From the NCBI GenBank assembly GCA_020445745.1, contig JAGRGB010000034.1:1-64000 (forward strand): 64,000 nt of DNA, read 5' to 3'. Origin of the DNA: Rhodocyclaceae bacterium. Its GTDB lineage: Bacteria > Pseudomonadota > Gammaproteobacteria > Burkholderiales > Rhodocyclaceae. Below, piece after piece: positions 17,476-49,467 of the stretch. The position numbers and the translations under genes are program-made. The notes below the pieces were generated by a model. The model was not told the DNA's origin. It made no database searches and saw only the letters and a list, made by a program, of their open reading frames with translations. Position 1 is the first letter of the stretch. Each line of letters begins with the position of its first letter.

Positions 17476-17491
17476 TACAAACGATATGCCA
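17476..17491 (-). promoter_or_regulatory. Sigma-54-like promoter for the moeA-like/moeB operon (weak match)
   Basis: On the minus strand the sequence reads TGGCAT-N5-TTGTA. The GG element matches; the -12 GC is GT instead. It lies about 41 bp before the ATG at 17435. It faces away from the aorA promoter and could share the same upstream activator sites. Confidence 0.4.
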
Positions 17492-17574
17492 CCGTCGACC
17501 GAGCGCCACACGGTCGGCCGGTGGCGACCAACGCGCAACGCGCTGCACGAGCACTGGCCGATGCGCGGCGCACA

Positions 17575-17591
17575 TGTTCCAGAATTGCGCA
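17575..17591. promoter_or_regulatory. Candidate activator site upstream of aorA (copy 1)
   Basis: TGTTCCAGAATTGCGCA matches the island consensus TGCTCCACATTGGAGCA at 12 of 17 positions by eye. It lies about 83 bp upstream of the aorA -24/-12 element. Confidence 0.45.
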
Positions 17592-17593
17592 TC

Positions 17594-17610
17594 TGCTCCA
17601 ATACGCAACG
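17594..17610. promoter_or_regulatory. Candidate activator site upstream of aorA (copy 2)
   Basis: The left half TGCTCCA is perfect; the right half is weak (10 of 17 overall). Its start is 19 bp from copy 1, and an isolated right half-site CGGAGCAA follows at 17659-17666. Confidence 0.4.
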
Positions 17611-17673
17611 CGCCAATACCGGGCCAGCCGACAATTGCGCGGAAGCGCCCGGCAGTTTCGGAGCAAACGGACG

Positions 17674-17689
17674 CGGCACGGGATTTGCG
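17674..17689 (+). promoter_or_regulatory. Sigma-54 (-24/-12) promoter of the aor operon
   Basis: CGGCAC-GGGAT-TTGCG has GG and GC elements 12 bp apart, as required for RpoN, with one mismatch in the consensus TGGCAC-N5-TTGCW besides the last base. It ends 59 bp before the aorA ATG, and candidate enhancer sites lie about 65-100 bp upstream. Confidence 0.65.
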
Positions 17690-17748
17690 CCTATTGGCCT
17701 CGTGGGACGAGACATCGCACCAAACCAGACAAACCGGAGGACCAGCCC

Positions 17749-18219
17749 ATGTTGAAATCGCTGCACCTCGACCCCCTGAAATGTACCGGCTGCCTGCAAT
17801 GCGAAATGGCCTGCTCGTACGAAAAGACCGGGGTCGTCAATCCCGCCAAGTCGCGGATCAAGATCTTCAACTTCGAGGCCGAAGGCCGCAAGGTGCCCTA
17901 CACCTGCACCCAGTGCGCGGAAGCCTGGTGCATGGCGGCATGCCCCGTCGAAGCCATCAAGCTCGACAAGGGTACCGGCGCGAAGGTGGTGCTGGAAGAC
18001 ACCTGTGTAGGCTGCAAGGTGTGCACGATCGCCTGTCCGTTCGGCACCGTTAACTACATGGCCGATGTCGGCAAGGTCCAGAAATGCGACCTGTGCGGCG
18101 GCGACCCGGCCTGCGCCAAGGCCTGCCCGACCGGCGCGATCACCTATATCGACGCCGACTGGACCGGACTCGACAAGATGCGCGCGTGGGCCGAGAAGGC
18201 CAACGCGGCAGCGCTGTAA
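17749..18219 (+). CDS. aorA: Aldehyde:ferredoxin oxidoreductase electron-transfer subunit (four [4Fe-4S])
   Basis: 156 residues containing sixteen cysteines in four ferredoxin-type sets: CTGCLQCEMAC, CTQCAEAWCMAACP, CVGCKVCTIACP and CDLCGGDPACAKACP, enough for four [4Fe-4S] clusters. It resembles the polyferredoxin subunit AorA of the tungsten aldehyde oxidoreductase of Aromatoleum, which wires the catalytic subunit to the flavin subunit. It is cytoplasmic, with no signal peptide. GGAGG at 17736-17740 precedes the ATG at 17749. The gene is 10 bp from aorB and lies behind a sigma-54-type promoter. Confidence 0.9.
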   Translation: MLKSLHLDPLKCTGCLQCEMACSYEKTGVVNPAKSRIKIFNFEAEGRKVPYTCTQCAEAWCMAACPVEAIKLDKGTGAKVVLEDTCVGCKVCTIACPFGTVNYMADVGKVQKCDLCGGDPACAKACPTGAITYIDADWTGLDKMRAWAEKANAAAL

Positions 18220-18229
18220 GGAGAAGACC

Positions 18230-20077
18230 ATGGCATGGAACAGAAAGGTCCTGCGCGTGAACCTCACGAACGGCACCTGCAACGCAGAACCCCTCAACAT
18301 GGAATGGGCCAACGACTACCTCGGTTCGCGCGGCCTCGGCACCAAGTATCTGTTCGAGGAGATCGATCCCAAGGTAGATCCGCTGTCGCCCGACAACAAG
18401 CTGATCATGGCGACCGGGCCGCTGACCGGCACGATGGCATCCACAGGCGGTCGCTACACGGTGATCACCAAGGGCCCGCTGACCGGAGCGATAGCCTGTT
18501 CCAATTCCGGTGGCTATTTCGGCGCCGAGCTGAAGTTCGCCGGATGGGACATGATCATCTTCGAGGGCAAGTCGGCGAAGCCCGTCTATCTCTACGTCGA
18601 GAACGACAAGGCGGAACTGCGTGACGCGTCCCACCTGTGGGGCAAGACCTGCTGGGAAACCGAGGACCTGATCAAGGAATCCCACCAGGATCCGCAGATC
18701 CGCATCGCCTCGATCGGCCGTTCGGGCGAAAACCAGGTGATGTTCGCCTGTATCGTCAACGACCTCCACCGCGCCGCCGGTCGATCCGGCGTCGGTGCGG
18801 TGATGGGCTCGAAGAACCTCAAGGCGGTCGCGCTGCGCGGCACCGTGGGCGTTTCCGGCATCAAGGATTTCGCGGCCTTCCTCAAGGCCAGCAACGACGC
18901 CAAGAAGGTGCTCAAGGAAAACGCCGTGACCGGCCAGGGCCTGCCCACCTACGGCACCCAGGTGCTGATGAACGTGATCAACGAGGTCGGCGCGCTGCCG
19001 ACCCGCAACCACCTCGACGTCCAGTTCGAGGATGCGTCGAAGATCTCGGCCGAAGCGATGCACGAAGTGCGCGAGAGCGACGGCAAGAAGCATCTCCTGA
19101 CCAATGCCGCCTGCTTCGGCTGCACGATCGCCTGCGGCCGCATCTCGAAGATCGACCAGAACCACTTCACCGTGGTGAACAGCCCGAAATACTGGGGCGC
19201 GTCCGGCGGACTGGAGTACGAGGCAGCCTGGGCGCTCGGCGCGGCGAACGGCGTCGGCGATCTCGAAGCCCTGCAGTACGCCAACATGCTGTGCAACGAG
19301 GACGGCTACGACCCGATCACCTTCGGAGCCACCGTCGGTGCGGTGATGGAACTCTACGAGATGGGCGTGCTGACCAAGGAGCAGATCGGCATCGAGGCGC
19401 CCTTCGGCTCGGCCAAGGCGCTGGCCTTTCTGGCGGAGCTGACCTCGCGCGGCGAGGGTTTCGGCAAGGAAGTCGGTCTCGGCTCGAAGCGCCTGTGCGA
19501 GAAGTACGGCCACCCCGAGCTGTCGATGAGCGTCAAGGGCCAGGAGTTCCCGGCCTACGACGGTCGAGGCATCCAGGGCATCGGGCTCAACTACGCCACA
19601 TCGAACCGGGGAGCCTGTCACGTGCGCGGCTACACCGTCGCCTCCGAGGTGCTCGGCATCCCGGTCAAGACCGAGCCGACCGCCACCGAGGGCAAGCCGG
19701 AACTGGTCAAGGCCTTCCAGGACGCCACGACGATCTTCGACTCCGCCGGCATCTGCCTGTTCACGTCGTTCGCGTGGACCCTGGCCGACGTCCAGCCGCA
19801 GCTGCAGGCCGCCTGCGAGGGCGACTGGTCGATGGAAAAGCTGAACCTGGTCGGCGAGCGGATCTGGAATCTTGAGCGCGAGTTCAACCTGGCCGCCGGC
19901 TTCACCCGCAAGGACGACGACCTGCCGCCCCGCCTCAAGAACGAGCCGTGCAAGACCGGTCCGGCCAAGGGCGTGGTCAGCCACGTCGAAGAGATGCTGC
20001 CGGAGTATTACAAGGTCCGCGGCTGGGACAGCGAAGGGGTTCCGACCGCACAGACGAGGACCCGCCTGGGTCTCTGA
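18230..20077 (+). CDS. aorB: Tungsten-dependent aldehyde oxidoreductase catalytic subunit
   Basis: 615 residues, the usual length of AOR. It begins MAWNRKVLRVNLTNGTCNAE and has the AOR_N signature (YLGSRGLGTKYLFEEIDP; TGPLTGTMASTGGRYTV), the [4Fe-4S] motif CFGCTIAC with the distal cysteine in SAGICLF, and the pterin-contacting segments around GKSAKP and GRGIQGIGLNYATSNRG. It oxidises aldehydes to carboxylic acids using a bis-pterin tungsten cofactor in the cytoplasm. Some relatives also reduce acids or use H2. It pairs with AorA 10 bp upstream. An intrinsic terminator structure follows the stop codon, before aorC. Confidence 0.93.
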   Translation: MAWNRKVLRVNLTNGTCNAEPLNMEWANDYLGSRGLGTKYLFEEIDPKVDPLSPDNKLIMATGPLTGTMASTGGRYTVITKGPLTGAIACSNSGGYFGAELKFAGWDMIIFEGKSAKPVYLYVENDKAELRDASHLWGKTCWETEDLIKESHQDPQIRIASIGRSGENQVMFACIVNDLHRAAGRSGVGAVMGSKNLKAVALRGTVGVSGIKDFAAFLKASNDAKKVLKENAVTGQGLPTYGTQVLMNVINEVGALPTRNHLDVQFEDASKISAEAMHEVRESDGKKHLLTNAACFGCTIACGRISKIDQNHFTVVNSPKYWGASGGLEYEAAWALGAANGVGDLEALQYANMLCNEDGYDPITFGATVGAVMELYEMGVLTKEQIGIEAPFGSAKALAFLAELTSRGEGFGKEVGLGSKRLCEKYGHPELSMSVKGQEFPAYDGRGIQGIGLNYATSNRGACHVRGYTVASEVLGIPVKTEPTATEGKPELVKAFQDATTIFDSAGICLFTSFAWTLADVQPQLQAACEGDWSMEKLNLVGERIWNLEREFNLAAGFTRKDDDLPPRLKNEPCKTGPAKGVVSHVEEMLPEYYKVRGWDSEGVPTAQTRTRLGL

Positions 20078-20105
20078 GCGGGCCGAGGCATTGCGTTGTG
20101 AGATG

Positions 20106-20194: not shown

Positions 20195-21535
20195 ATGAAA
20201 CATCTGATTCTGGGCAACGGCCCGACCGGCGTCGTCGCGGCCGAGACCCTGCGCGGCGTCACGTCGGCCGACGAGATCGTGATGGTCGGCAGCGAGCCGG
20301 AGCCACCGTATTCGCGAATGGCCATCCCCTACCTGCTCGAAGGCAACATCGACGAGCGGGGCACCTACCTGCGCAAGACCGACAGCCATTTCGGCGACCT
20401 GTCGATCCGCCAGAAACAAGGGCGGGCGCGCGCGCTCGATACCGCCCAGCGGCGGGTCACCTTCGAAGACGGCAGCGTCGAGACCTACGATCGCCTGCTG
20501 ATCGCGACCGGATCCCATCCGGTGCGGCCGCCGATCCCCGGCGTGGACCTGCCCCAGGTGCAGACCTGCTGGACGCTGGAGGATGCCCGGGCGATCGCCA
20601 GCCTGGCGTCGCCGGGATCGCGCGTGCTGCAGCTCGGCGCCGGCTTCATCGGCTGCATCATCATGGAAGCGCTGGCCAAGCGTGGCGTCGAGCTGACGGT
20701 GGTCGAGATGGGCGACCGGATGGTGCCGCGGATGATGACGCCGAAGGCCGGCGGCATGATCAAGCGCTGGGTCGAGGAACAGGGTATCCGTGTCGTCACC
20801 GGCGCCGGCGTGCAGCGCATCGACCCGGCCGGCGCCAACAGCGCCGGCGGCATCGGCGGCATGATCAAGTCGGTGGTGCAGAGCGTGACCGGCAACAAGC
20901 CGGCCGACTCCGCTGCGCTGACGGTGACGCTGTCCACCGGCGACAAGCTGGAGTGCGACCTGGTGATCGTCGCTGCCGGCGTCGCGCCGAACGTCGATTT
21001 CCTGGCGGGTACCGCGATCGAGGTCAACAAGGGCGTGGTCGTCAACCTGGCGATGGAAACCGGCGTCGATGGCGTCTATGCCGCCGGCGACGTCACCGAG
21101 GCGCCGGATCTGCTGACCGGCGAGAACATCGTCTCGGCGATCCAGCCCAACGCCGCCGACCAGGGCCGCATCGCCGCGCTGGGCATGGCCGGACGCAAGG
21201 TCGAACTGCCGGGTGTGCTGCCGATCAACGTGCTCGACACCCTGGGCCTGATTTCCGTGTCCTTCGGCCAGTGGTGGGGCGAGAAGCCCGAAGACGATGG
21301 CAGTGGCGTCGAGCTCGCCGACGAAGGGCTGTGGCGTTACCTCAGCCTGCAATTCAAGGGCGACGTGCTGATCGGCGCGACCGCGATCGGGCGCACCGAC
21401 CAGGTCGGCGTGCTGCGCGGCCTGATCCAGAACCGGACTTCGCTCGGCCGCTGGAAGAAGGTGCTGATGGACAACCCGACGCGCTTCGTGGATGCCTACA
21501 TCGCCACCAGCCAGCCGGTGTCGATCGCCAGTTGA
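20195..21535 (+). CDS. aorC: FAD/NAD(P)-dependent oxidoreductase subunit of aldehyde oxidoreductase
   Basis: 446 residues of the class I pyridine nucleotide-disulfide reductase fold. The FAD Rossmann motif is LILGNGPTGVVAAE, the NAD motif is VLQLGAGFIGCIIMEALAKRG, and the second FAD motif is VYAAGDVTEAPD. There is no redox-active CxxxxC pair, so it is an NADH-oxidoreductase (NirB/rubredoxin reductase-like) subunit. In the Aromatoleum enzyme the equivalent AorC passes electrons from AorA to NAD+. The start ATG 20195 follows GAGGATGG. It is separated from aorB by 117 bp holding a terminator hairpin. Confidence 0.9.
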   Translation: MKHLILGNGPTGVVAAETLRGVTSADEIVMVGSEPEPPYSRMAIPYLLEGNIDERGTYLRKTDSHFGDLSIRQKQGRARALDTAQRRVTFEDGSVETYDRLLIATGSHPVRPPIPGVDLPQVQTCWTLEDARAIASLASPGSRVLQLGAGFIGCIIMEALAKRGVELTVVEMGDRMVPRMMTPKAGGMIKRWVEEQGIRVVTGAGVQRIDPAGANSAGGIGGMIKSVVQSVTGNKPADSAALTVTLSTGDKLECDLVIVAAGVAPNVDFLAGTAIEVNKGVVVNLAMETGVDGVYAAGDVTEAPDLLTGENIVSAIQPNAADQGRIAALGMAGRKVELPGVLPINVLDTLGLISVSFGQWWGEKPEDDGSGVELADEGLWRYLSLQFKGDVLIGATAIGRTDQVGVLRGLIQNRTSLGRWKKVLMDNPTRFVDAYIATSQPVSIAS

Positions 21536-21629: not shown

Positions 21630-21881
21630 ATGAACATCACGCTCAAGCTGTTCGCGACCCTGACCGACTACCTGCCGGCTGGCACCAAGGGCAATGTCGC
21701 GCAAATGCAACTGGCCGACGGGGCCCGCCTCGGCGACCTGCTGGACGAACTGCGGCTGCCCGCGAAGCTGGTGCACCTGGTGCTGGTGAATGGTGCCTAC
21801 GTCGCACCGGAGGCGCGCACCGAGCATCGCCTCGGCGACGGCGACACGCTGGCCATCTGGCCACCGGTCGCAGGCGGCTGA
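21630..21881 (+). CDS. MoaD/ThiS-family sulfur carrier protein
   Basis: 83 residues of the beta-grasp ubiquitin-like fold, starting MNITLKLFATLTDYLP and ending in the diglycine tail PPVAGG that MoeB-like enzymes adenylate. The central LVNGAYVAPEARTEHRLGDGDTLAIWPP is typical of MoaD. It donates sulfur for the dithiolene of molybdopterin. A separate copy placed just after aorC, with a moeB gene in the divergent operon, suggests a cofactor-supply set dedicated to the tungsten enzyme. It lies 94 bp from aorC and 6 bp from the next small gene. Confidence 0.88.
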   Translation: MNITLKLFATLTDYLPAGTKGNVAQMQLADGARLGDLLDELRLPAKLVHLVLVNGAYVAPEARTEHRLGDGDTLAIWPPVAGG

Positions 21882-21887
21882 GCGACG

Positions 21888-25445: not shown

Positions 25446-25462
25446 TGTTCCACATTGGAGCA
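25446..25462. promoter_or_regulatory. Activator site upstream of pedF (strong copy)
   Basis: TGTTCCACATTGGAGCA differs from the best copy in the window at one position. It is centred about 150 bp upstream of the pedF -24/-12 element and about 90 bp from the divergent activator gene. Confidence 0.65.
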
Positions 25463-25480
25463 ATCCTGCAGCGCAGCGAC

Positions 25481-25497
25481 TGCTCCACTTATAGGCA
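25481..25497. promoter_or_regulatory. Activator site upstream of pedF (weaker copy)
   Basis: TGCTCCACTTATAGGCA matches the consensus at 12 of 17 positions, with a perfect left half. It starts 35 bp after the strong copy. Confidence 0.45.
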
Positions 25498-25606
25498 AGG
25501 CCCGTGCCACCTGCCATGCGGTGCAGCAAATGCCTGCCGCAGCCCTGCCTCGCCAAACCCCGCATGCTGCGGCGGTTCGCGCCGCCCGGCGCGGTGCCCG
25601 CGGCCG

Positions 25607-25622
25607 TGGCATAGCCCTTGCA
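25607..25622 (+). promoter_or_regulatory. Sigma-54 promoter of pedF
   Basis: TGGCAT-AGCCC-TTGCA is a near-perfect -24/-12 element with correct GG to GC spacing. It ends 61 bp before the pedF ATG, with activator sites 110-160 bp upstream. Confidence 0.8.
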
Positions 25623-25683: not shown

Positions 25684-26118
25684 ATGGCCACCACACAAAA
25701 GCCCCGCCTCGCGCTACGCCGCGCAATCGCCATCGCTGCCGTCGGAATCGCCGGCAACGCCTTTGCCCACGGCGACGTGACGCCGCAGGCAGTGGACGTC
25801 ACCAGCCTCAAGCCGCTCGGCGACGAATGGCTCGAGAGCAATCCCTATCGCGGCGACCAGGAAGCCATCCGCGTCGGCACCTCGGCCTTCAACCAGAACT
25901 GTGCTCGCTGCCATGGCATCGGCGCGGTATCCGGCGGCATCGCTCCGGACCTGCGCTACCTGCCGGTCGAAGACGAAGGCGACGAGATCTTCATCATGCG
26001 CATCCGCAATGGCGCTACCCGCAACGGACGCGTGTACATGCCCCCGTTCGAGGGTATCCTCCAGCAGGAAGCGATGTGGGCCATCCGGGCCTACCTGGAG
26101 ACGGTGCATGTGGAATAG
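25684..26118 (+). CDS. pedF: Cytochrome c-550 PedF
   Basis: 144 residues: a signal peptide ending near NAFA, then HGDVTPQAVDVTSLKPLG, one heme c site CARCH, SGGIAPDLRYLP and the methionine ligand region VYMPPFEGIL. This is the PedF type, the soluble periplasmic cytochrome that accepts electrons from PQQ-dependent alcohol dehydrogenases in Pseudomonas putida and relatives. It lies behind a sigma-54 promoter with upstream activator sites, and its stop overlaps the start of the next gene by 11 bp. It therefore probably carries electrons from the quinoprotein encoded near 48 kb. Confidence 0.93.
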   Translation: MATTQKPRLALRRAIAIAAVGIAGNAFAHGDVTPQAVDVTSLKPLGDEWLESNPYRGDQEAIRVGTSAFNQNCARCHGIGAVSGGIAPDLRYLPVEDEGDEIFIMRIRNGATRNGRVYMPPFEGILQQEAMWAIRAYLETVHVE

Positions 26119-26956
26119 GCGCGGCGCTCTGCGCGGTCTTGCGACACTGGCGCTGGCGATCGCCAGTGCCAGCGTCGCGGCGCTCGCCGAGCCGGTGGAG
26201 ACGATGACCCCCGGCCGGCTGCGGATAGCGGTATACGACGACTTCGCGCCCTACTCGGGCGACGGTTCGGGGATCGACGTCGCGCTCGGCCGGGAACTCG
26301 CGAAACGACTGGGCCTCGAGCCGGAAGTGGTCGAGTTCGCGGCCGACGAGGACATGAACGACGACCTGCGCAACATGGTCTGGAAGGGTCACTACCTCGG
26401 CACCCGCCCGGCCGACGTTATGCTGCATGTGCCGGTGGACCAGCGTCTCGCCGACCGCAACGAGCAGGTCAGGATCTTCGGCCCCTACCACCTCGAAAGC
26501 CTCGCGGTGATCCGTGATCCGAAGCGGGTGCCGCCGGTCGAGGGCTCCGCCGCACGCGCGCTCGAGGTGTTCACCCGCGAGCGCATCGGCGTCGAGACCG
26601 CCACCCTGGCCGACGATTTCCTGCTCCAGGTACTGAACGGCCGGTTGCGCGACAACGTCGTCCACTTTCGAAGCGTCGCCGAAGCGGTAAGCGCGATGGA
26701 GGCCGGCGAGGTAGCTGCCGTGATGGCGACACGGGCCGAGATCGAGGGTGCGGCGCGCCCGACCGACCCGCGTTTCGAGCTTACCACTCTGCGCATGCCC
26801 GAACTCAAGATCCAGGGCTGGCCGCTGGGCATGGCGGTCAAGGCGGAGTCCACCGCGCTCGCCGAGGCGCTCGGCAAGGCGATGGCGGAAATCGAGCGTG
26901 ACGGTACGCTGGCCCGGATCTTCAACGACCACGGCGTTACCCTGCGCAAGCCCTGA
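26108..26956 (+). CDS. Quinoprotein-associated periplasmic substrate-binding protein (PedB/MoxJ-like)
   Basis: 282 residues with a signal peptide and a type 3 periplasmic binding fold: LRIAVYDDFAPYSGDGSGIDVALGRELAKRLG, then ADVMLHVPVDQRLADRNEQV and the closing KAMAEIERDGTLARIFNDHGV. Relatives are annotated as quinoprotein dehydrogenase-associated solute-binding proteins, whose genes sit with PQQ enzymes and cytochromes. They are thought to help the dehydrogenase mature or couple rather than feed an ABC importer; no permease gene follows on this strand. ATG 26108 overlaps the end of pedF, so the two are translationally coupled. Confidence 0.88.
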   Translation: MWNRRGALRGLATLALAIASASVAALAEPVETMTPGRLRIAVYDDFAPYSGDGSGIDVALGRELAKRLGLEPEVVEFAADEDMNDDLRNMVWKGHYLGTRPADVMLHVPVDQRLADRNEQVRIFGPYHLESLAVIRDPKRVPPVEGSAARALEVFTRERIGVETATLADDFLLQVLNGRLRDNVVHFRSVAEAVSAMEAGEVAAVMATRAEIEGAARPTDPRFELTTLRMPELKIQGWPLGMAVKAESTALAEALGKAMAEIERDGTLARIFNDHGVTLRKP

Positions 26957-27029: not shown

Positions 27030-27133
27030 CCAGTCGTTTACCCGCCCGCCACCGGGTAGGGCCTGATTCAGTGTCGGCTTCGCAGCGGAAACTGTGCAAC
27101 TTGCGCGCAAACAGGAGCAACAAAACTGAACAA

Positions 27134-27152
27134 TTGCTCCACATTGGAGCAA
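27134..27152. promoter_or_regulatory. Perfect inverted-repeat activator site in a gene-free gap
   Basis: TTGCTCCACATTGGAGCAA is a perfect 8+3+8 inverted repeat and the best copy of the island motif. It stands between two convergent genes (stops at 26956 and 27378) in a 421-bp gap with no convincing gene and no good sigma-54 promoter. A half-site AGGAGCAA lies at 27113-27120. Confidence 0.7.
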
Positions 27153-27361: not shown

Positions 27362-27387
27362 GGATCAGGCGCCCGGATCAGGCGCCC
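27362..27387. repeat. 13-bp tandem duplication at the permease stop codon
   Basis: GGATCAGGCGCCC is repeated twice head-to-tail. The second copy contains the stop codon of the ABC-2 permease gene, so the duplication placed a spare stop downstream. Confidence 0.8.
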
Positions 27388-28187
27388 TTGCCCGTCTTGC
27401 GCAACATGCCGCGCTGGGGATCGTAGCCGAACACCGCGATCGCGAAGAACAACAGCAAGCAGGCCACGACCACCAGCAACGAAGTCGTCTGCAACTGGCC
27501 GTACATCGCGTAGCGCACCAACTCGACGGCGTGGCTGAAGGGATTGAATCGGGCCGCCTGGTACAACCATTCGGCGCCCGACTCCTGCATCTTCCACAGC
27601 GGATACAGCGCAGGCGAGATGAAGAACATCGGAAAAATCACGAAATTCATCGTGCCGGCGAAATTCTCGAGCTGCTTGACATGCACCGACAGCACCAGGC
27701 CCAGGGCGCCGAGCATCATGCCGGCCAGCACCAGCGCCGGCATCACCGCCAGCATGCCGGCGAGGGGCAGATCGACGCCGATCAGCGAGGCGATCACCAG
27801 GAAGGCGATCGCCTGCAGCACCGACAGGACGGTGCCTGCCACCAGCTTCGACAGCAACAGGTACCAGCGCGGCACCGGCGCCGTCAGCAACAGCCGCATC
27901 ATCCCCATCTCGCGGTCGTAGACCATCGCCAGCGAAGACTGCATGCCGTTGAACAGCAGGATCATGCCGAGCAGGCCGGGAGCGATATAGACCTGGTACG
28001 GAATGTAGGTCTCGTAGGGCGGGATGATCGACACCCCGAAGACGTTCTGGAATCCGGCGGCGAACACCACCAGCCACAGCAGCGGCCGCACCAGGGCCGA
28101 GAAGAAGCGCCCGCCCTGGTGGACGAACTTCTCGACCTCGCGGCCCGCCACCGCGCCCAGGACCCGCAGGCCGTGGGCCGGCGTCAT
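27378..28187 (-). CDS. ABC-2 type permease of the PQQ-dependent alcohol dehydrogenase system (PedC-like)
   Basis: 269 residues with six hydrophobic helices and the ABC-2 pattern SLAMVYDREMGMMRLLLTAPVPRWYLL and FFISPALYPL. It is the inner-membrane part of the ABC system encoded with PQQ-dependent catabolism genes (TIGR03861/PedC group). Its ATPase is encoded three genes upstream in the same minus-strand operon. The transported molecule is not known; the beta-propeller and binding-protein partners suggest a periplasmic maturation or export role. It is the last gene of the operon. Confidence 0.88.
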   Translation of the reverse strand: MTPAHGLRVLGAVAGREVEKFVHQGGRFFSALVRPLLWLVVFAAGFQNVFGVSIIPPYETYIPYQVYIAPGLLGMILLFNGMQSSLAMVYDREMGMMRLLLTAPVPRWYLLLSKLVAGTVLSVLQAIAFLVIASLIGVDLPLAGMLAVMPALVLAGMMLGALGLVLSVHVKQLENFAGTMNFVIFPMFFISPALYPLWKMQESGAEWLYQAARFNPFSHAVELVRYAMYGQLQTTSLLVVVACLLLFFAIAVFGYDPQRGMLRKTGKGA

Positions 28188-28209
28188 CGGCGACTCCGCG
28201 TCAATTCGA

Positions 28210-29406
28210 TCAGAACTTGCATTGGCTTTCCCGTTGGTCGAATCCGAGAGTGTCGAGCGTATTGGTCTGGTGCATGAAGCCCTGGATCGGCGCCCGCTCG
28301 ATCACCGCGTTGTGGCTCGCCAGCAGCATCGGCTGACGCAGCTGGTGGTTCCAGCTGCGGAACGACAGGCGATGGCCCTTGAAGCCGTCGATCGTGATAT
28401 CGGGCCCGAGCAGGTAGTCGCGAATCGCGCCGAAGTCGGCTCCCCCGGTGCGCTGCATCGCCTCGACGACCGTCTTCGCGGCCATCCACGCGGCCCAGCC
28501 GGCCTCGCTCATCCGGTACTTGGCCTTGCGCTCGAATCGGGTATTGAGCTGCGGCGCGCCGTTGCGCTCCCACGACCAGTGCCAGCCGGTCGCCACCAGG
28601 CCTTCCGCGCCGACCACCGGCCGCGGCCGCACGGTCCGGTAAGGTACGCTGCGGGCAAATTCGCCGTCACTGTCGGCCACCAAGACGACGTCGTAATCGG
28701 CATTCGAGGTGAGCAATCCGACGTTGCCCTGGTCGCGCTCGCGGGGATCATTCGACAGGATGAAGTCGCGCTTCGCCTCGATCTCGATGCCGAAACGCTT
28801 CGCCGATCGCTCGAAGGCCTTCGCGATCAGCGCGTCCTCGGCCAGCGGGCCCTGCAGCACCAGCACCGACCGCCATTTCTTCGACACCAGATACTGCGCC
28901 AGGGCGTCGGCCTGCATCGCGTGACTGGGCGCCGTGTGCAGCAGGTTCGCCTGGCACAGTTGCTGGCGCAGCGCGTCGTCGTGGGCCGAGATGTTGAACA
29001 GCAGCAGGTCACGCCCCTTGACCGCTGCGGCGACCTCGGCCACCACGGGTCCCGGCGCGTCGATCAGGAAGTAGCGGACGCCCTCGCCGGCCAGGCGCTC
29101 GAGCGCCTCGATCAGGCCCTTGGCATCGGCTGCCCGCACCTGCTTCTCGCCCAGCTCGACGCCGACCGCCCTGGCACTGAATCGGGACTCGCTCAGCGCG
29201 ACGGCCAGACCGGGCTCCGGCTCGCCTTCGCCCTGGGCGAGATTGCGCGCATAGACGCGATCCTCGTGATAGCGGTCGTCGCGGGACAAGCCGAGGTAGC
29301 CGAAGTCGATCGTCGCCGCCAGCGAGGTGCCGGCCATCGCCGCGCCGATGGCGGCCGGCAGCAGTCTGCGCAATCCGATTCTCATGGTCCCCGCCGCCTC
29401 AGTCAT
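28210..29406 (-). CDS. Branched-chain-type ABC substrate-binding protein of the PQQ-dependent system
   Basis: 398 residues from ATG 29406, which overlaps the upstream stop by 8 bp; an internal ATG at 29385 starts the signal peptide proper (MRIGLRRLLPAAIGAAMAGTSLAA). The mature chain is a type 1 periplasmic binding fold: IDFGYLGLSRDDRY, AAVKGRDLLLFNISAHDDALR, NLLHTAPSHAMQADALAQYLV and GFKGHRLSFRSWNHQLRQPMLLASHNAV. This matches the PQQ_ABC_bind group (TIGR03863), found with quinoprotein genes. The ligand is unknown. It lies between the beta-propeller and permease genes of one operon. Confidence 0.87.
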   Translation of the reverse strand: MTEAAGTMRIGLRRLLPAAIGAAMAGTSLAATIDFGYLGLSRDDRYHEDRVYARNLAQGEGEPEPGLAVALSESRFSARAVGVELGEKQVRAADAKGLIEALERLAGEGVRYFLIDAPGPVVAEVAAAVKGRDLLLFNISAHDDALRQQLCQANLLHTAPSHAMQADALAQYLVSKKWRSVLVLQGPLAEDALIAKAFERSAKRFGIEIEAKRDFILSNDPRERDQGNVGLLTSNADYDVVLVADSDGEFARSVPYRTVRPRPVVGAEGLVATGWHWSWERNGAPQLNTRFERKAKYRMSEAGWAAWMAAKTVVEAMQRTGGADFGAIRDYLLGPDITIDGFKGHRLSFRSWNHQLRQPMLLASHNAVIERAPIQGFMHQTNTLDTLGFDQRESQCKF

Positions 29407-30373
29407 CGACGGCCACGCCGTAGGGCACGCGGCCGACCGGCACGGACTTCAGGACCCGGCGCTTGACGGTGTCGACGATGGACAGGTCGTCCGACATGCC
29501 ATTGACGACGTACAGGGTCTTCTCGTCGCGGGACAGCGTGGCACCCCACGCCCTGCGGCCGACCAGGATGTAGTCCTCGATCTCGCGCTTCGCGACGTCC
29601 ACGACGGCGACGTGATTGGCCCGCCCGAGGGTCACGTAGGCAGTCTTGCCGTCACGGCTCATGACGATGCCCACCGGGGTCACGTCCTCGTCGCGGAACC
29701 CCTTGGGCTTGAACGGAATCGTGCCCTTGATCCGATCCGTCCTGCCGTCGAGGATCGTGACCTCGCCGGCCAGTTCGCTGGTGACCCAGACTTCGCCGCC
29801 GTCCGGCGTGATCGCGAAGCGCCGCGGACGGTTGCCGACCGTGACGTTGCTGCGGATCTCGTTGGTCGCAGCATCGATCACATGCACCATGCTGGCGACC
29901 TCGGAAGTCGCATAGACGGTCTTGCCGTCCGGGCTGACCTTGACGCCCTCGGGCTCCTCGCCAACCTCGATCTCGGCGACCTGCTCGCCGCTGGCGACGT
30001 CGATCACCGACACCGCCGCATCCTCTTCCATCGAGATGTAGAAATGCTTGCCATCGACGCCGACGTCGAAGGCTTCCGGGTCGTCGCCGACATCGACGCT
30101 GCTGCCCACCTCGAGCTTGGCGACGTCGATCAGATCGATTCGCCCCGAGTCGCTGGCCACGACGTACAGGGTCCGGCGATCGGGGGAGAACTGCATGTGC
30201 CGCGGACGCTCTCCGGTCGCGATGACCTTGACCACCGCCAGGCTCTTGCCGTCCAGCACCGTCACCGCGTGGTCCTTCTCGCTGCTGACGAAGATGAGGC
30301 CGCTGTCCCTGGCGGCCGCGCTCCCGCAGCAGATCGTCAGCAGGGCCGCGGCCGCGAACCTCGATACGTTCAT
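29399..30373 (-). CDS. PQQ-dependent catabolism-associated beta-propeller (YVTN repeat) protein
   Basis: 324 residues: a signal peptide ending near CCGSAAA, then about seven YVTN-type blades, each with a GxxPxxxxxSPDGKTVY-like core (for example ATGERPRHMQFSPDRRTLYV and EVGEEPEGVKVSPDGKTVY). The pattern is that of TIGR03866, a periplasmic beta-propeller found only near PQQ-dependent dehydrogenase operons. It has no CxxCH heme site. The function is unknown; a scaffold or chaperone role is plausible. GGAG lies 7 bp before the ATG at 30373, and the end overlaps the next gene by 8 bp. Confidence 0.9.
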   Translation of the reverse strand: MNVSRFAAAALLTICCGSAAARDSGLIFVSSEKDHAVTVLDGKSLAVVKVIATGERPRHMQFSPDRRTLYVVASDSGRIDLIDVAKLEVGSSVDVGDDPEAFDVGVDGKHFYISMEEDAAVSVIDVASGEQVAEIEVGEEPEGVKVSPDGKTVYATSEVASMVHVIDAATNEIRSNVTVGNRPRRFAITPDGGEVWVTSELAGEVTILDGRTDRIKGTIPFKPKGFRDEDVTPVGIVMSRDGKTAYVTLGRANHVAVVDVAKREIEDYILVGRRAWGATLSRDEKTLYVVNGMSDDLSIVDTVKRRVLKSVPVGRVPYGVAVDD

Positions 30374-30384
30374 TCCCGTCTCCT

Positions 30385-31161
30385 TCATCGATTGCCATCC
30401 GAGTTGTCCGATGCGCCGCGACCACCGCCTTCGGTCAGCTCGGCGAACGCCCGCGCGAGGCTGTCCGTACCGGCACTGGCGACCAGTTCGGCGGGGGTGC
30501 CTTCCGCCCGCACGCGGCCGCGGTGCAACACCACGACGCGATCGGCGCCCTCGGCCTCGTCCACCAGGTGCGACGCCCACAGCACGCCGACCCCCCGCGC
30601 CGCGCACAGGCCATGGACCTGGTCCAGCAGGGCCGCCCGCGAACCCGGGTCGAGGCCGACGGTGGCTTCGTCCATCAACAGCACCCGCGGCTCATGGACC
30701 ATCGCCCTCGCCAGCTCGACCTTGCGGCGATTGCCGCCCGAGAGGTCGCGCACGCGGTCCCGTCGACGGTCGGCGAGGCCCTGTGCCGCCAGCTCCGCGG
30801 CGACGCGGCGGCGCGCGTCGGCGCCGCCGAGGCCATGCAGCCGGGCATGGAACATCAGGTTGCGCTCGACCGAGAGGTCGAGGTCGAGGGTCGCCTGCTG
30901 GAACACGATGCCGATCCGCGCCAGCGCCATCACCGGTGCCCGGCGGATGTCGTGGCCACAGATCGTGATGTCACCGCCGTCGGCGACGAACAGGCCCGAC
31001 AGCAGCTGAAACAGGGTGCTCTTGCCGGCGCCGTTGGGCCCGAGCAGGGCCACGAACTCGCCCTCCGATATCGCCAGCGACACGCCGTCGAGCGCCTTGC
31101 GGCTGCCATACGACTTGGCAGCGTCCACCACCGTCAGCAGGGCGTCATGGGTGTCAGTCAT
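30385..31161 (-). CDS. ABC transporter ATP-binding protein of the PQQ-dependent system
   Basis: 258 residues with a complete nucleotide-binding domain: Walker A GPNGAGKST, Q-loop FQQATLD, signature LSGGNRRKVELARAM, Walker B RVLLMDEATVGLDPGSR and switch His in WASHLVDEAE. It belongs to the TIGR03864 group that pairs with the PedC-like ABC-2 permease of the same operon. Its ATG shares one base with the stop of the broken ATPase gene upstream. In the longer open frame to 31842 the two ATPases appear fused, but this is an artefact of the frameshift described for the upstream gene. Confidence 0.9.
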   Translation of the reverse strand: MTDTHDALLTVVDAAKSYGSRKALDGVSLAISEGEFVALLGPNGAGKSTLFQLLSGLFVADGGDITICGHDIRRAPVMALARIGIVFQQATLDLDLSVERNLMFHARLHGLGGADARRRVAAELAAQGLADRRRDRVRDLSGGNRRKVELARAMVHEPRVLLMDEATVGLDPGSRAALLDQVHGLCAARGVGVLWASHLVDEAEGADRVVVLHRGRVRAEGTPAELVASAGTDSLARAFAELTEGGGRGASDNSDGNR

Positions 31162-31842
31162 CAGGCTGCATCCTGGGCGGCTCCGTCGAGCCCGGCCAGC
31201 AGGCCGGGGTGGCACGACAGCAGTTCTTCGTAGAGTTTGCCGATCTCGGCCGACTGCGGATCCCGTGGGCGCGGCAGTTCGACCCGGTGTTCGAGAACGA
31301 TCCGCCCGGGCGATGCCGACAGGAAACACACCCGGTCGGCCAACGAAAGGGCTTCGCGCAAGTCGTGGGTAACGAACAATACCGTCGCCCGGCGCCGCTG
31401 CCAAAGCGTGATCAGCATCGAACGCACGGGCCAGCGCGACACGGCGCTGCATGCCACCCGACAACGCGCCGGGGAACGCATCCACGACCTCGCCCAGTTC
31501 CATCGCCTGCAGCAGCCGCTGCGCGCGCTGCATCGCGTCCGCCTGCCCGCTGCACACCAGGCAGACGTTCTGCAACACCGTCAGCCACGGCATCAAACGG
31601 GGCTCCTGGAACATGAAACCGATGTCCTCGCCGCGCACGCCGCCTTCGACAGCCATGCTGGCGTCCGCCTTCCCATCGAGTCTGCCGATGATGTTGAGCA
31701 GCGTGCTCTTGCCACAGCCGGAAGGCCCCACCAGACACACGAACTCGCCTTCGCCCGCCGACAGGCGGAGATCCCGCAGGGCCAGATGGCGCCGACCGCC
31801 GCGATCGGCGTAGCGTTTTTCGCGCACATGCACCGTCAACAT
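31161..31842 (-). pseudogene. NitT/TauT-type ABC ATPase with internal deletion and frameshift
   Basis: The first 140 codons encode a normal SsuB/TauB-like ATPase: Walker A GPSGCGKST, Q-loop MFQEPRLMPWLTV and signature LSGGMQRRVALARAF. At about 31419 the frame breaks. Homologous sequence resumes in another frame with MLITLWQRRRATVLFVTHDLREALSLADRV and ends at a TGA at 31161-31163. By comparison with the family about 26 codons are missing, including Walker B and the catalytic Glu (LLLLDEP) and the D-loop. Without these the protein could not hydrolyse ATP. This is either a true decay of the transporter or an assembly error at one spot. Flanking permease and binding-protein genes are intact. Confidence 0.85.
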
Positions 31843-31843
31843 G

Positions 31844-33722: not shown

Positions 33723-33738
33723 TGCAAGCGCTGTGCCA
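33723..33738 (-). promoter_or_regulatory. Sigma-54 promoter of the ABC/beta-propeller operon
   Basis: On the minus strand TGGCAC-AGCGC-TTGCA is a perfect match to the -24/-12 consensus. It lies 78 bp before the substrate-binding protein ATG and is the strongest such element in the window. Confidence 0.85.
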
Positions 33739-34038
33739 GCAGCGATCGCCGGAACGCCGGCAAAAAAAAACGGCGGTCCGCCATGCGGCCCGCCTGCAAG
33801 TAGCGCCATAGAGGGAGAAACGATGGGTGACGCGGACCGAACCCGCGGCGATGTCAGGCGCTCGACGAGGAAGGGGGCGGGAGAGGGAGTGCCGCCCGAT
33901 CCGTGTCACCCACGGCCTGTGTGACGCATTACTCATGCCTGAACCTGCCTTTGGACCGCAATTGCCCTGGCAGCAACGGATTCGGCCGGACCGGCGGGAT
34001 CCTCAGGAAGGGTCACACATGCGCCGAAACTGGACAGG

Positions 34039-34055
34039 TGCTCCACCTCGGAACG
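34039..34055. promoter_or_regulatory. Candidate activator site of the ABC operon
   Basis: TGCTCCACCTCGGAACG matches the island consensus at 13 of 17 positions. It is about 300 bp upstream of the sigma-54 promoter, just after the stop of the GGDEF gene. Confidence 0.45.
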
Positions 34056-35361: not shown

Positions 35362-35674
35362 CGATCGGTCGATAGCTTGGAAGCCCTTTTTCGGAAGCGA
35401 TCACGAGCACTCAGCCTAGAGAATATCCTGCCCCGGCCATCGACGCGATCAAAGTGCGTCGATCGAGCGACTGCGATGCCGCGACGACGATGGCGACTGC
35501 TCCACGCTGTGCAATTCTGGAGCAGATTGTTGCAATCCGCGCGGGCACGGGTAATCCGCGGCCTATGCGCCGACTGCCACCGCCGGCAACGGCAATCCGT
35601 CACCGGCAAACGGGATCCGGCGGTTGCCGCGTCGACTCCAGCGCAACGGCATGTTTCGTGCAACAGGCCGCCGC
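35362..35674. other. Divergent intergenic region with activator-like half-sites
   Basis: 313 bp between the GGDEF gene and the second activator gene. It contains activator-like half-sites near 35500 but no convincing -24/-12 element and no gene. Confidence 0.55.
35498..35525. promoter_or_regulatory. Split activator site upstream of the second AcoR-type gene
   Basis: A perfect left half TGCTCCA (35498-35504) and a perfect right half TGGAGCA (35518-35524) are present but 20 bp apart start-to-start, instead of 10 bp as in the compact site. This would suit autoregulation of the activator gene. Confidence 0.4.
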
Positions 35675-37519
<1,845 letters not shown>

Positions 37520-39016: not shown

Positions 39017-39028
39017 CGGTGACTCCGT

Positions 39029-40546: not shown

Positions 40547-40561
40547 CGGATCCCTCCAGGA

Positions 40562-42511: not shown

Positions 42512-42537
42512 CGGCGGCTCTCCCGATGCTCGGTTGC

Positions 42538-43446: not shown

Positions 43447-43460
43447 GGCGTTTCTCCGGT

Positions 43461-46578: not shown

Positions 46579-46962
46579 TCAGTCGCCGAGCGACAGGATC
46601 CAGCTCACCAGCAGACGGGCATCGGTCTCCTTGATCGCCGATGCATTGGGCGGCATCGACAGGCCGCTGACCTTTCCCTTCCAGTGGCTGTTGTAGGGGC
46701 TCGAGCCCTCCAGCACGACACGGGTCAGGAAATCCTGGGCGCCAGGCTTGCCGTGATACTGGCGCGCCACGTCCTGCCACGCCGGTCCGATCGGATCCAT
46801 GCCCTTCGGCCCGGGCTTGCCCGACTCGATCGAATGACAGGTCATGCAGCCACTGGTGGCAGCCAGCTTGCGCATTGCCTCGTCGTTTTCATTGGCCGCG
46901 ACGGCGGCGCCCGCGAGCGCCACGCCGACCGTTGCGAGCAGGGTTGTCACTGCAACTCTCAT
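46579..46962 (-). CDS. Small periplasmic cytochrome c (class I, monoheme)
   Basis: 127 residues with a signal peptide (cleavage near AAVAA) and one heme site CMTCH in AATSGCMTCHSIESGKPGPKGMDPIGPAWQDVA; the distal methionine is in GLSMPPNASAI. It is a c551/c5-like electron carrier. It lies downstream of the quinoprotein alcohol dehydrogenase gene on the same strand but is separated by 419 bp with a terminator and its own sigma-54 promoter. It is a candidate electron acceptor for the quinoprotein, in parallel with PedF, or a link to the terminal oxidase. Confidence 0.88.
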   Translation of the reverse strand: MRVAVTTLLATVGVALAGAAVAANENDEAMRKLAATSGCMTCHSIESGKPGPKGMDPIGPAWQDVARQYHGKPGAQDFLTRVVLEGSSPYNSHWKGKVSGLSMPPNASAIKETDARLLVSWILSLGD

Positions 46963-47201: not shown

Positions 47202-47217
47202 CGCAACACTCATGCCA
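47202..47217 (-). promoter_or_regulatory. Sigma-54 promoter of the small cytochrome c gene
   Basis: On the minus strand TGGCAT-GAGTG-TTGCG shows correct GG/GC spacing and is the same in both conserved blocks as the quinoprotein promoter. It lies 240 bp before the start codon. Confidence 0.65.
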
Positions 47218-47307
47218 ATTACGTTGGGGCGGCCACCCGCCCTGCGCGGCCGCAAGGACCGCCGACATCCCGACGCAACGGCAGCATGGCTTCGTCGCCG
47301 CCACCAC

Positions 47308-47346
47308 CGAAAAGCAGCGGCACGGCAGCCGAAACTGCCGTGCCGC
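47308..47346 (-). terminator. Intrinsic terminator of the quinoprotein dehydrogenase gene
   Basis: A perfect 12-bp stem GCGGCACGGCAG / CTGCCGTGCCGC with a 6-base loop lies 36 bp after the stop codon. On the minus strand it is followed by TGCTTTTCGG. Confidence 0.75.
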
Positions 47347-47381
47347 GATCCCCGGGGCAGGTACCGGGGCTTCGTCATCGC

Positions 47382-49169
47382 TCAGGACTTGTGCAGCTTG
47401 AACACCCAGATCGAGCCACCCTGCTCGAGGTAGTTCACGCGCTTGGCGACGTCGCCACCCCACAGCGGCACGGCGCCGCCCCAGCCAGCCGCCACGGCGA
47501 TGAACTGCTCGCCGTCCTGCTCCCAGGTGATCGGCGGCGCGACGATGCCGGTGCCGACCTGGAAGCTCCACAATTCCTTGCCGGTCTTGGCATCCAGCGC
47601 CTTCAGGTAGCCCTCCGGCGTGCCATAGAAGGTCAGCCCGCCGGCGGTGGTCAAGACGCCGCCCCACAGCGGAGCATAGTTCTTGTTTTCCCAGACGATC
47701 TCGCCCTTGACCGGATCGATCGCGCGCAGCGCGCCGATGTAGTCCTCGTGCGTGGCCTTGATCGTGAAGCCCGCGCCGAGATACGCCGCGCCCTTCTTGT
47801 AGGCGATCGGCTCGTTCCAGATGTCCATGCCCCACTCGTTGGCCGGCACGTAGAACAGGCCGGTGCCCGGGTTGTAGGCCATCTGCATCTGGTTCTTGCC
47901 ACCCAGGAAGGAGGGTGCGGAGAACACGACCTCGCCCTTCTTGCCGTCGCCGGCCTTGGCCGGGTTGCCCGGACGGTTGGCATCGACATACACCGGGCGG
48001 CCGGTCGCCAGATCGATCTTCTCGGCCCAGGTGATCTGCTTGACGAACGGGAAGGCGTTCAGCAGCTTGCCGTTGGTCCTGTCATTGACGAAGAAGAAGC
48101 CGTTGCGGTCGGCCTTGCCGCCGGCCTTGATCACCTTGCCGGACTTCGGATCCTTGTAGTCGAACGAAACGAATTCGTTGACACCGTCGAAGTCCCAACC
48201 GTCGTGGGGGGTGTTCTGGTAGTGCCAGACGATCTTGCCGGTGTCGGGGTTGATCGCCACGGTGGAGGACGAGAACAGGTTGTCGCCGGGGCGGTTCCAG
48301 CTGTTCCAGGGTGCCGGGTTGCCGGTGCCGACGAAGATCAGGTTGGTCTCCGGATCGTAGGTGGCGCCGTTCCAGGTCGCCGCACCGCCGGTCTGCCACA
48401 GGTCGCCCGGCCAGGTAGCGTTCGTGGTGCCCGAGATGCCGTTCTCGACCTTGTTGCCCTGGTCGTCGAATTTGTAGCCCATGTGGCCTTCGACGGTCGG
48501 GCGGATCCACTTCAGCTTGCCGGTCTTCGCGTCGCGCGCCTCGAGGCGGCCGATGACGCCGAATTCACCACCGGAGACGCCGCTGATGACCATGCCGTTG
48601 ACGATGATCGGCGCGGCCGACATCGAGTAGCCGGCATGGTAGTCGTCGACCTTCTCGCGCCAGACGCGCTTGCCGGTCTCGACGTCGAAGGCCAGCAGCT
48701 GGGCGTCCAGCGTGCCGAAGATCACCAGGTTGTCGTACAGCGCCGCACCGCGGTTGATCACGTCGCAGCAGGGCATGATGCCGTCGGGCAGGCGGTGCTC
48801 GTACTTCCACAGCTTCTTGCCGGTCATGGCATCGAACGCGAACAGACGGCTGTACGAGGCGGTCACGAACAGGCGGCCGTCGTGCACCAGCGGCTGGGAC
48901 TCCTGTCCGCGCTGCTTCTCGCCGCCGAAGGACATCGTCCAGGCCGGCACCAGGTTGCCGACGGTCGACGTGTTGATCTTGTCCAGGGTGCTGTAGCGCT
49001 GGCCCTGGGTGCCGAGGCCGAAGGACACCACGTCGCCGGTGGTCGTCGCGTCGTTCACGATGTCCGCATCGGTGACGCCGGCGGTGGCCGAACCCCAGGC
49101 CAGGACCGAGGCTGCAATGACACTCAGGGTCAGTCCACGAGCCGGACGAGTCTTGCTCCAGTCTTTCAT
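47382..49169 (-). CDS. PQQ-dependent alcohol dehydrogenase with lanthanide-type metal site (PedH/ExaF-like)
   Basis: 595 residues: a signal peptide (about 1-30), then an eight-bladed PQQ beta-propeller. Active-site features are the vicinal disulfide Cys134-Cys135 (MPCCD), the metal ligands Glu202 (GGEFG) and Asn284 (GTGNPAPWN), and the catalytic Asp326 in WDFDGVNE. Two residues on is Asp328. In the family an Asp here marks lanthanide enzymes (XoxF, ExaF, PedH); calcium enzymes have Ala or Ser. It oxidises primary alcohols to aldehydes in the periplasm and passes electrons to cytochrome c. It is preceded by a sigma-54 promoter with activator sites and diverges from tonB. Confidence 0.93.
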
Positions 49170-49245
49170 CGAAATACCTCCTCATTTTTTTCGGTGCGTC
49201 CCCGAACGCCCGGGACCGGATCTGAGCGGGGTACGAATCCCGTTG

Positions 49246-49261
49246 CGCAAGGGACATGCCA
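49246..49261 (-). promoter_or_regulatory. Sigma-54 promoter of the quinoprotein dehydrogenase gene
   Basis: On the minus strand TGGCAT-GTCCC-TTGCG matches the -24/-12 consensus with correct spacing. It lies 77 bp upstream of the start codon, with activator-like sites about 170-220 bp further upstream. Confidence 0.75.
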
Positions 49262-49430
49262 CTTGCCGGGCCGCGGATTTTTCCGGCTCGCACTCGCGAA
49301 AATCGCCACACCGGCGTGATCCGATTCGAGCCGGATCAGGCGCAGCCAAACGGTTGGCGGTCCATACGCTGTCGTCTGTCGGCAGCCGCCCGGGGGAGTC
49401 GCCGGGGCGATCCGCGACACCGTCGCGGGC

Positions 49431-49447
49431 TGCTCCGAAAATTGCCA
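49431..49447. promoter_or_regulatory. Candidate activator half-site upstream of the quinoprotein gene
   Basis: TGCTCC is followed by a poorly matching right half (9 of 17 positions). It is listed because it is 19 bp from the better copy, the same spacing as the paired sites before aorA. Confidence 0.35.
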
Positions 49448-49448
49448 G

Positions 49449-49467
49449 TTGCTCCGAATTGAAACAA
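49449..49467. promoter_or_regulatory. Activator site upstream of the quinoprotein gene
   Basis: TTGCTCCGAATTGAAACAA keeps both ends of the inverted repeat and matches the core consensus at 13 of 17 positions. It is about 190 bp upstream of the sigma-54 promoter and also just before tonB. Confidence 0.5.

Follow-up and report, generated by a model that had tools for sequence, protein, structure and literature searches.

Why should the genes for a tungsten aldehyde oxidoreductase (AOR) lie beside those for an alcohol oxidation system of the lanthanide type that uses pyrroloquinoline quinone (PQQ), and are the two switched on together? The question is raised by a 64,000-nt stretch of a Rhodocyclaceae bacterium (contig JAGRGB010000034.1, hereafter the window), part of a 4.88-Mb genome in 217 contigs in which rpoN is present. 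The initial annotation of this DNA proposed a single sigma-54 regulon joining the two systems, and our analysis supports that proposal through conserved promoters and operators, a concentration of operators in the window, and recurrence of the association across genera with rearranged gene order. We put the probability at roughly 0.8 that, as the sequences suggest, one AcoR/sigma-54 regulon couples the tungsten AOR to lanthanide-type PQQ alcohol oxidation; the co-regulation is well supported and the metabolic side of the proposal is plausible.

Putative sigma-54 promoters were scored with a matrix written out from the general sigma-54 consensus, and ranks (Table 1) refer to all positions on both strands of the window. 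The six best matches are those of the small cytochrome gene, the ATP-binding cassette (ABC) operon, pedF, acoR1, position 50398 and the quinoprotein gene, and for five of these six a gene start on the matching strand follows within 300 bp (binomial p = 6e-5; the gene starts are from a hand-made list). As a conservation reference we used G344 (Rhodocyclaceae metagenome-assembled genome HKST-UBA162; AorB 94% identical), the closest named relative among the best 80 of at least 561 AOR matches, in which GG-N10-GC is retained at the cytochrome, ABC, pedF, acoR1 and quinoprotein sites. All five elements originally placed before aorA, pedF, the ABC operon, the small cytochrome gene and the quinoprotein gene were found where they had been described, each retained in G344; together with the acoR1 and tonB-like sites, which had been overlooked, they show GG-N10-GC in a TGGCA..TTGC-like context. 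The core TGGCAYN5TTGC occurs 44 times in the 4.88 Mb, six of them within the window (about 0.6 expected by length), compared with four in total for the reversed control. A weaker site claimed before the moeA-like gene (17476) did not hold up: it has GT instead of GC at -12 in the window and G344 alike, which rules it out as a sigma-54 promoter although the block around it is conserved. This 26-bp block (17466-17491) is identical in G344 and is perhaps the site of another regulator; a search of 192 loci found a 17-base piece of it in no other genomes than that of the window and G344. The sigma-54-like element at 50398-50414 overlaps the tonB-like stop codon, is identical in G344 and lies about 470 bp before the histidine kinase/response regulator/NosR-like group.

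The inverted repeat that accompanies these promoters is a 17-bp dyad of the type TG-N2-CCA-N3-TGG-N2-CA, the unit of a paired operator in which two such dyads have their starts 19 bp apart. For the operator matrix we assembled 16 dyads manually, several of them also as reverse complements, from acoR1-pedF spacers and the aorA site of G344; two of the 16 come from the window. Operator counts for acoR1 and pedF therefore contain some circularity, unlike those for the quinoprotein gene, aorA (except in G344) and the 3' operators described below. On the window the matrix finds nine sites of at least 12 bits versus 0.7 in shuffles, and the 12 best matches in the whole window all fall between 17.5 and 49.5 kb: two each at aorA, between acoR1 and pedF, 3' of the ped operon, at the ABC operon and between the quinoprotein and tonB-like genes, and one each, lacking a 19-bp partner, at acoR2 and at 46437. 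The exact pair pattern has just two occurrences in the 4.88 Mb, one preceding aorA and the other preceding the quinoprotein gene. Allowing one mismatch gives six places genome-wide, four of them in the window; allowing two gives 60 versus 41 for the reversed control, and such matches are therefore mostly noise. Likewise, TGYTCCN5GGARCA with up to one mismatch occurs 16 times genome-wide, five times in the window including both perfect copies (reversed control, eight). The 19-bp spacing is itself a recurrent feature: among 100 distinct sites from 90 sequences, 36 are accompanied by a second one at that distance, while within the range of 9-100 bp the next commonest spacing, 10 bp, accounts for nine sites and each of the remainder for at most three.

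The repeat had been described as standing before aorA, pedF, the ABC operon and the quinoprotein gene. Degenerate copies are indeed present before aorA, the ABC operon (weak) and the quinoprotein gene, but the letters originally given for it are matched (up to three mismatches) only at 25446 and 27135, and the latter copy, assigned to the upstream region of the ABC operon, actually lies between two convergent operons. A TGYTCC shared by all acoR1-pedF spacers was considered and failed: the sequence varies, and what is kept is mainly the geometry of the dyad with its TG..CA ends. Near acoR1 the dyads overlap the promoter element of this gene or lie downstream of it, as would suit autoregulation. 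Both activators proposed for the region are confirmed as AcoR-type by their Pfam domains (GAF, sigma-54 AAA+ and a Fis-type helix-turn-helix), and the GAFTGA loop is found in both translations.

The same association recurs in other genomes. An acoR1-like gene (product at least 40% identical to AcoR1, which may include paralogues) and pedF are divergent neighbours in 23 of 90 sequences, the window included, often with sigma-54 sites on both. The named AOR loci examined were the best 80 of at least 561 (47 full-length, 33 shorter), so that the sample leans to close kin; in 15 of them (12 of 47 full-length, 3 of 33 shorter) both an AcoR1-like gene and pedF are found no further than 10 kb from aorB. 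These linked loci belong to four Aromatoleum species, Azoarcus, Thauera, Methyloversatilis, Hydrogenophaga and several metagenome-assembled genomes, and their gene order varies: pedF< acoR> aorA> in the Aromatoleum and Thauera types and acoR< pedF> aorA> in Methyloversatilis, as compared with aor> acoR< pedF> in the window. Part of the PQQ-associated ABC operon also adjoins in the four Aromatoleum loci. In G003, a genome of another family, the quinoprotein gene, acoR1, pedF, a solute-binding protein gene and aorABC share one stretch (acoR< pedF> solute-binding protein> propeller> aorABC>), with sigma-54 sites of 17-18.5 bits before the quinoprotein gene, acoR1, pedF and aorA and operators of 23 bits before the quinoprotein gene and aorA. 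The AorB tree requires 11 changes of the linked state, eight or more of them on well-supported branches; linkage has therefore been gained or lost repeatedly. An order-wide sample of 250 genomes contains AOR (E<=1e-150) in 24 and an AcoR1 match (E<=1e-120) in 58; 12 have both, and in three of these (the window genome, G003 and G049) the genes are no more than 30 kb apart.

Sites in relatives, where gene starts were obtained by extension from tblastn ends, were assigned p values from 100 near-dinucleotide shuffles per sequence. At p<=0.02, sigma-54 sites precede pedF in 23 of 25 sequences, acoR1 in 16 of 27, the quinoprotein gene in 8 of 11 and aorA in 16 of 81 (the aorA scan needs 300 bp upstream, available in 81 of 83), and operators precede the quinoprotein gene in 10 of 11 and aorA in 21 of 81. 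Control genes gave, for sigma-54 sites and operators each, 1 of 77 (aorC), 0 of 14 (pedSBP) and 0 of 8 (moaD). For aorA, the sites go together with linkage. Over all sequences, where the window, G003 and G049 are added to the named loci without having been blindly sampled, a sigma-54 site is present in 11 of 17 linked versus 5 of 64 unlinked sequences (Fisher 3e-6) and an operator in 9 of 17 versus 12 of 64 (p = 0.01). With named loci only, the sigma-54 contrast is 9 of 15 versus 5 of 63 (Fisher 4e-5), and with one Aromatoleum kept of four it is 6 of 12 versus 5 of 63 (p = 0.0014).

AorB is most similar, among solved structures, to the Aromatoleum aromaticum enzyme (8c0z, 1164 bits), and AFOR N and C domains, a ferredoxin-like subunit and a flavin adenine dinucleotide (FAD) subunit encoded in one operon place the AOR in the three-subunit (AORAa) type, whose gene order it also shares; its use of tungsten is predicted from this. 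The quinoprotein passes the methanol/ethanol-type PQQ dehydrogenase family (TIGR03075, 765 bits, cut-off 480). In PedH the metal ligands are Glu199, Asn281, Asp323 and Asp325, according to the part of PMC11845868 consulted. By eye, in the alignment to 6zcv, all four are retained in our quinoprotein, with the Asp pair at residues 326 and 328, and WD[FY]D is present in 12 of 12 distinct close quinoproteins adjoining pedF in relatives; loci L049 and L140 have an additional, more distant quinoprotein with serine replacing the second aspartate. The protein is thus probably of the lanthanide type, its actual metal use being predicted. Four members of the ABC operon exceed the NCBI cut-offs of PQQ-alcohol-oxidation-associated families (TIGR03861, TIGR03863, TIGR03864 and TIGR03866).

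Between 15.7 and 55 kb the genes are moeB-like, moeA-like, aorABC, a MoaD-like gene, acoR1, pedF, a solute-binding protein gene, the ABC operon, a GGDEF gene, acoR2, a heme-protein-like run, the small cytochrome c gene, the quinoprotein gene, the tonB-like gene, and histidine kinase, response regulator and NosR-like genes. Coordinates are given in Table 1.

Table 1. Genes, predicted sigma-54 sites and operators of the locus (window positions unless a locus is named; NAD, nicotinamide adenine dinucleotide).
Feature	Position	Strand	Basis or remark
moeA-like gene, divergent from aorA	16500..17435	-	MoCF_biosynth, MoeA_C (Pfam)
Operator pair before aorA	17575..17610	.	dyads 17575 + 17594; exact pair match
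Sigma-54 site of aorA	17673..17689	+	11.5 bits, rank 16; retained in G344
aorA, Fe-S subunit of tungsten AOR	17749..18219	+	Fer4 domains
aorB, tungsten-cofactor subunit (predicted)	18230..20077	+	AFOR_N/AFOR_C; top solved structure 8c0z
aorC, FAD/NAD(H) subunit	20195..21535	+	Pyr_redox_2
MoaD/ThiS-like gene in aor operon	21630..21881	+	ThiS
acoR1: GAF, sigma-54 activator, Fis-type helix-turn-helix	23318..25372	-	Pfam
Dyads between acoR1 and pedF	25446..25497	.	starts 25446 + 25481, 35 bp apart; both identical in G344
Sigma-54 site of acoR1	25494..25510	-	15.1 bits; retained in G344
Sigma-54 site of pedF	25606..25622	+	16.3 bits, rank 3; retained in G344
pedF-like cytochrome c gene	25684..26118	+	Cytochrome_CBB3
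Periplasmic solute-binding protein gene, 3' of pedF	26108..26956	+	follows pedF
Operator pair 3' of pedF operon, between convergent genes	27116..27151	.	dyads 27116 + 27135; no sigma-54 promoter seen
3' operator examples	window 27116-27151; L097:19933-19968; L113:5699-5734
PQQ-associated ABC operon: SsuA-like, SsuC-like, ATPases, beta-propeller, PQQ_ABC_bind, PedC permease	27378..33642	-	TIGR03861, TIGR03863, TIGR03864, TIGR03866
Sigma-54 site of ABC operon	33723..33739	-	17.5 bits, rank 2; retained in G344
Weak operator pair, ~280 bp before ABC sigma-54 site	34020..34055	.	dyads 34020 + 34039; positions, partly letters, retained in G344
Dyad before acoR2	35508..35524	.	17.4 bits; identical in G344
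Weak GG-N10-GC element before acoR2	35646..35662	+	9.7 bits; 16/17 bases same in G344
acoR2, second AcoR-type activator (start uncertain)	35675..37519	+	Pfam
Small cytochrome c gene	46579..46962	-	Cytochrom_C
Sigma-54 site of small cytochrome gene	47202..47218	-	17.5 bits, rank 1; retained in G344
PedH/ExaF-type quinoprotein alcohol dehydrogenase gene, WDFD motif	47382..49169	-	TIGR03075; best structures 6zcv/6zcw
Sigma-54 site of quinoprotein gene	49246..49262	-	13.3 bits, rank 6; retained in G344
Operator pair between quinoprotein and tonB-like genes	49431..49466	.	dyads 49431 + 49450; exact pair match, conserved in G344
Sigma-54 site of tonB-like gene	49542..49558	+	12.6 bits; 17.5 bits in G344
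tonB-like gene (open frame, start approximate)	49561..50400	+	TonB_C

A number of observations weigh against a single regulon that includes aor. Linkage is the minority state (15 of 80 named loci); aorA has a sigma-54 site at p<=0.02 in just 14 of the 78 named loci tested, and in 63 of these 78 either the link or the aorA site is missing. The contrast between linked and unlinked loci becomes somewhat weaker after the non-blind sequences are dropped, and for the aorA operator in named loci only it is smaller (7 of 15 versus 12 of 63, p = 0.04). When kinship is corrected for, linkage and the sigma-54 site are associated in the same direction but not significantly (eight independent pairs, median sign-test p 0.125); this test counts 18 of 83 as linked, including L060_L061 (G049), which the 10-kb count excludes, its acoR1 lying beyond 10 kb. 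No clear sigma-54 site precedes aorA in the same-genus genome G295. In the window itself, the aorA site is of moderate strength (11.5 bits), and the first aorA dyad is worn where that of G344 is nearly a full palindrome. The ABC operon has weak operators, and none was found for the small cytochrome gene, the 46437 dyad close to it not being conserved in G344. The loose sigma-54 pattern (up to three mismatches) shows no excess in the window, with 97 occurrences versus 109 by chance, and hence only the strong sites carry weight.

How the two activators share the work is one point on which a different arrangement is possible, if doubtful: AcoR1 might control aor and pedF, and AcoR2 the quinoprotein, cytochrome and ABC genes, each responding to a different inducer. 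Such a division would suit the presence of two distinct activators (42% identical), each adjoining part of the genes, and the dyad that acoR2 has of its own; however, the aorA and quinoprotein operators are of the same pair type, and in G003 and the Aromatoleum stretches dyads are present nonetheless where no second activator was matched. Alternatively, the ped-type module alone might form the AcoR/sigma-54 regulon and aor be a mere neighbour, with chance or decayed sites and under some other control (e.g. that of aromatic or phenylalanine metabolism); most of the AOR loci examined have neither ped neighbours nor a sigma-54 site, and the aorA site of the window scores no more than 11.5 bits. 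We think this improbable, as aorA has one of the genome's two exact operator pairs, the corresponding dyad in G344 is near perfect, and aorA sigma-54 sites are found in G003 and in several Aromatoleum- and Thauera-type loci. Finally, that the dyads are sites of an unrelated regulator and overlap with sigma-54 genes by chance seems very unlikely: the binding of AcoR to them is predicted from sequence, and the 12 of 64 unlinked sequences with an operator before aorA mostly lack sigma-54 sites there, but in many of the genomes examined the dyads adjoin AcoR genes and stand upstream of sigma-54 sites, and Fis-type activators are expected to require enhancers such as these.

Returning to the single regulon, we infer the operator-binding protein, the inducer and the flux through both enzymes as follows. 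AcoR1, perhaps with AcoR2, would most likely sense an alcohol or aldehyde via its GAF region and bind the 17-bp dyads, often as pairs with starts 19 bp apart. The bound activator would then switch on sigma-54 polymerase at aorA, pedF, the ABC operon, the quinoprotein gene, the tonB-like gene and acoR1 itself. Both oxidation steps would thereby be provided at once: in the periplasm a PQQ alcohol dehydrogenase of the lanthanide type, together with the cytochrome as its electron acceptor and the transport parts, and in the cytoplasm an NAD-linked tungsten AOR to remove the aldehyde.

One class of operators lies at the other end of the ped operon. At 12 of 25 loci the last listed gene of the pedF operon is followed, after 34 to 618 bp, by an operator of 13.9 to 26.3 bits, which is a 19-bp pair in 11 and a single dyad in L120, and no sigma-54-like site above 10.5 bits was seen in the 1.5 kb inspected at these 12 loci (1.2 kb in L123). 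In the window, G344 and the four Aromatoleum loci this operator is between convergent genes. In L047 a 10.1-bit GG/GC element follows about 100 bp after the pair, which may therefore serve the next gene; L058_L059 was left out of the count, its site belonging to aorA. In the remaining 13 of the 25 loci there is no 3' operator of at least 13.5 bits, save for G003, where the operator is that of aorA. The 3' operator may be a downstream enhancer, a loop anchor or a relic. We suggest, tentatively, a recurrent tungsten-lanthanide regulon of the order Burkholderiales with a 19-bp paired-operator code, in which some lineages have the ped operon bracketed by such enhancers on either side, the 3' operator acting on the pedF promoter from about 1.3-3 kb downstream or closing a DNA loop around the operon.

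How does this compare with known systems? The initial annotation knew of no described regulon linking the two enzymes. We likewise found no description of an AcoR/sigma-54 regulon joining a tungsten AOR and a PQQ enzyme among the papers listed by full-text searches of open-licence literature, most subscription papers being outside that scope, but the neighbourhood of AOR and xoxF in Methyloversatilis, with both higher on methanol, had already been reported (PMC5023235). What follows on individual papers is drawn from passages of them. In M. universalis FAM5 the locus numbers of AOR (590040) and XoxJ3/G3/F3 (590042/043/046) are close together, and both systems are raised on methanol relative to methylamine, with fold changes of 1.8-3.1 and q from 0.05 to 0.62 (AOR 2.6-fold, q 0.17; XoxJ3 3.1-fold, q 0.05); unlike our proposal, this is read there as formaldehyde oxidation, and sigma terms are absent from the text (PMC5023235). 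BmoR of Thauera butanivorans, a genus with linked loci here, is an alcohol-sensing sigma-54 activator with an enhancer 193 bp upstream of the -24/-12 boxes as well as an inverted repeat (PMC8899819, PMC8784404), so that alcohol sensing by a sigma-54 activator exists; the BmoR-PBMO system differs in that BmoR controls an alkane monooxygenase, with no tungsten or lanthanide enzyme in the portions seen. The Pseudomonas ped cluster has a PedH-type enzyme, PedF cytochrome, PedC permease and PQQ-associated ABC parts in common with the window, but its local regulator is AgmR (PMC12997753), whereas the window has AcoR-type activators and sigma-54; the text of that paper mentions sigma-54 once, for CbrB, and lacks AcoR, RpoN and tungsten. 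AorABC of A. aromaticum is likewise a three-subunit tungsten enzyme with MoaD-like aorD/aorE, but the text of PMC6365974 contains none of the terms promoter, regulator and quinoprotein. A GAF-type sigma-54 regulator has been drawn in methanol-dehydrogenase clusters before, without an operator, regulon or tungsten enzyme in the part consulted, and regulation of lanthanide alcohol dehydrogenases is described there mainly via two-component systems (PMC11845868). In Ralstonia solanacearum, growth on ethanol needs rpoN1 and an AcoR homologue is the predicted activator of an aldehyde dehydrogenase, which is ExaC and not a tungsten enzyme (PMC4676750); by analogy, the window regulon looks like this rpoN1/AcoR-ExaC logic with a tungsten enzyme in place of ExaC. 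The proposed regulon is thus built from known parts in a new combination.

Some further features of the region and genome deserve mention. Between acoR2 and the small cytochrome gene, 37544-46097 holds a run of cytochrome-peroxidase-like and unassigned genes, two of which match neither NCBIfam (at 1e-5) nor Pfam (at 1e-4), and a segment at 46209-46292, slightly more than 100 bp upstream of the heme-protein-like operon (43461-46097), is strongly conserved in comparison with G344. Within the ABC operon, 30385-31842 is a single open frame with two ABC ATPase domains, where the Aromatoleum loci give two separate matches. A second quinoprotein with a WDFD motif (G000:C70, L064:9994) has an AcoR gene 7 kb off and strong sigma-54 sites, and the 20-kb stretch around it in the window genome (G000:C70) contains no dyads above 8 bits. 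A third AcoR, 55% identical to AcoR1 (G000:C95, L066:8038), carries upstream a variant dyad (19.7 bits) together with a weak sigma-54 site; of the stretches around these two further AcoR genes of the window genome, C70 has no operator above 12 bits and C95 the one variant dyad. Rfam gave no matches at gathering level over 15000-56000.

Few tungsten oxidoreductases have a defined role (5 of 92 clades, in the part of PMC13328260 consulted). In these bacteria the shared operator would give the three-subunit AOR a concrete and testable one, that of the second oxidation step for alcohols, induced jointly with the first. Its code is sharp enough to be usable for finding further members of the regulon, and it leads to the prediction that growth on alcohol would respond to both lanthanum and tungsten.

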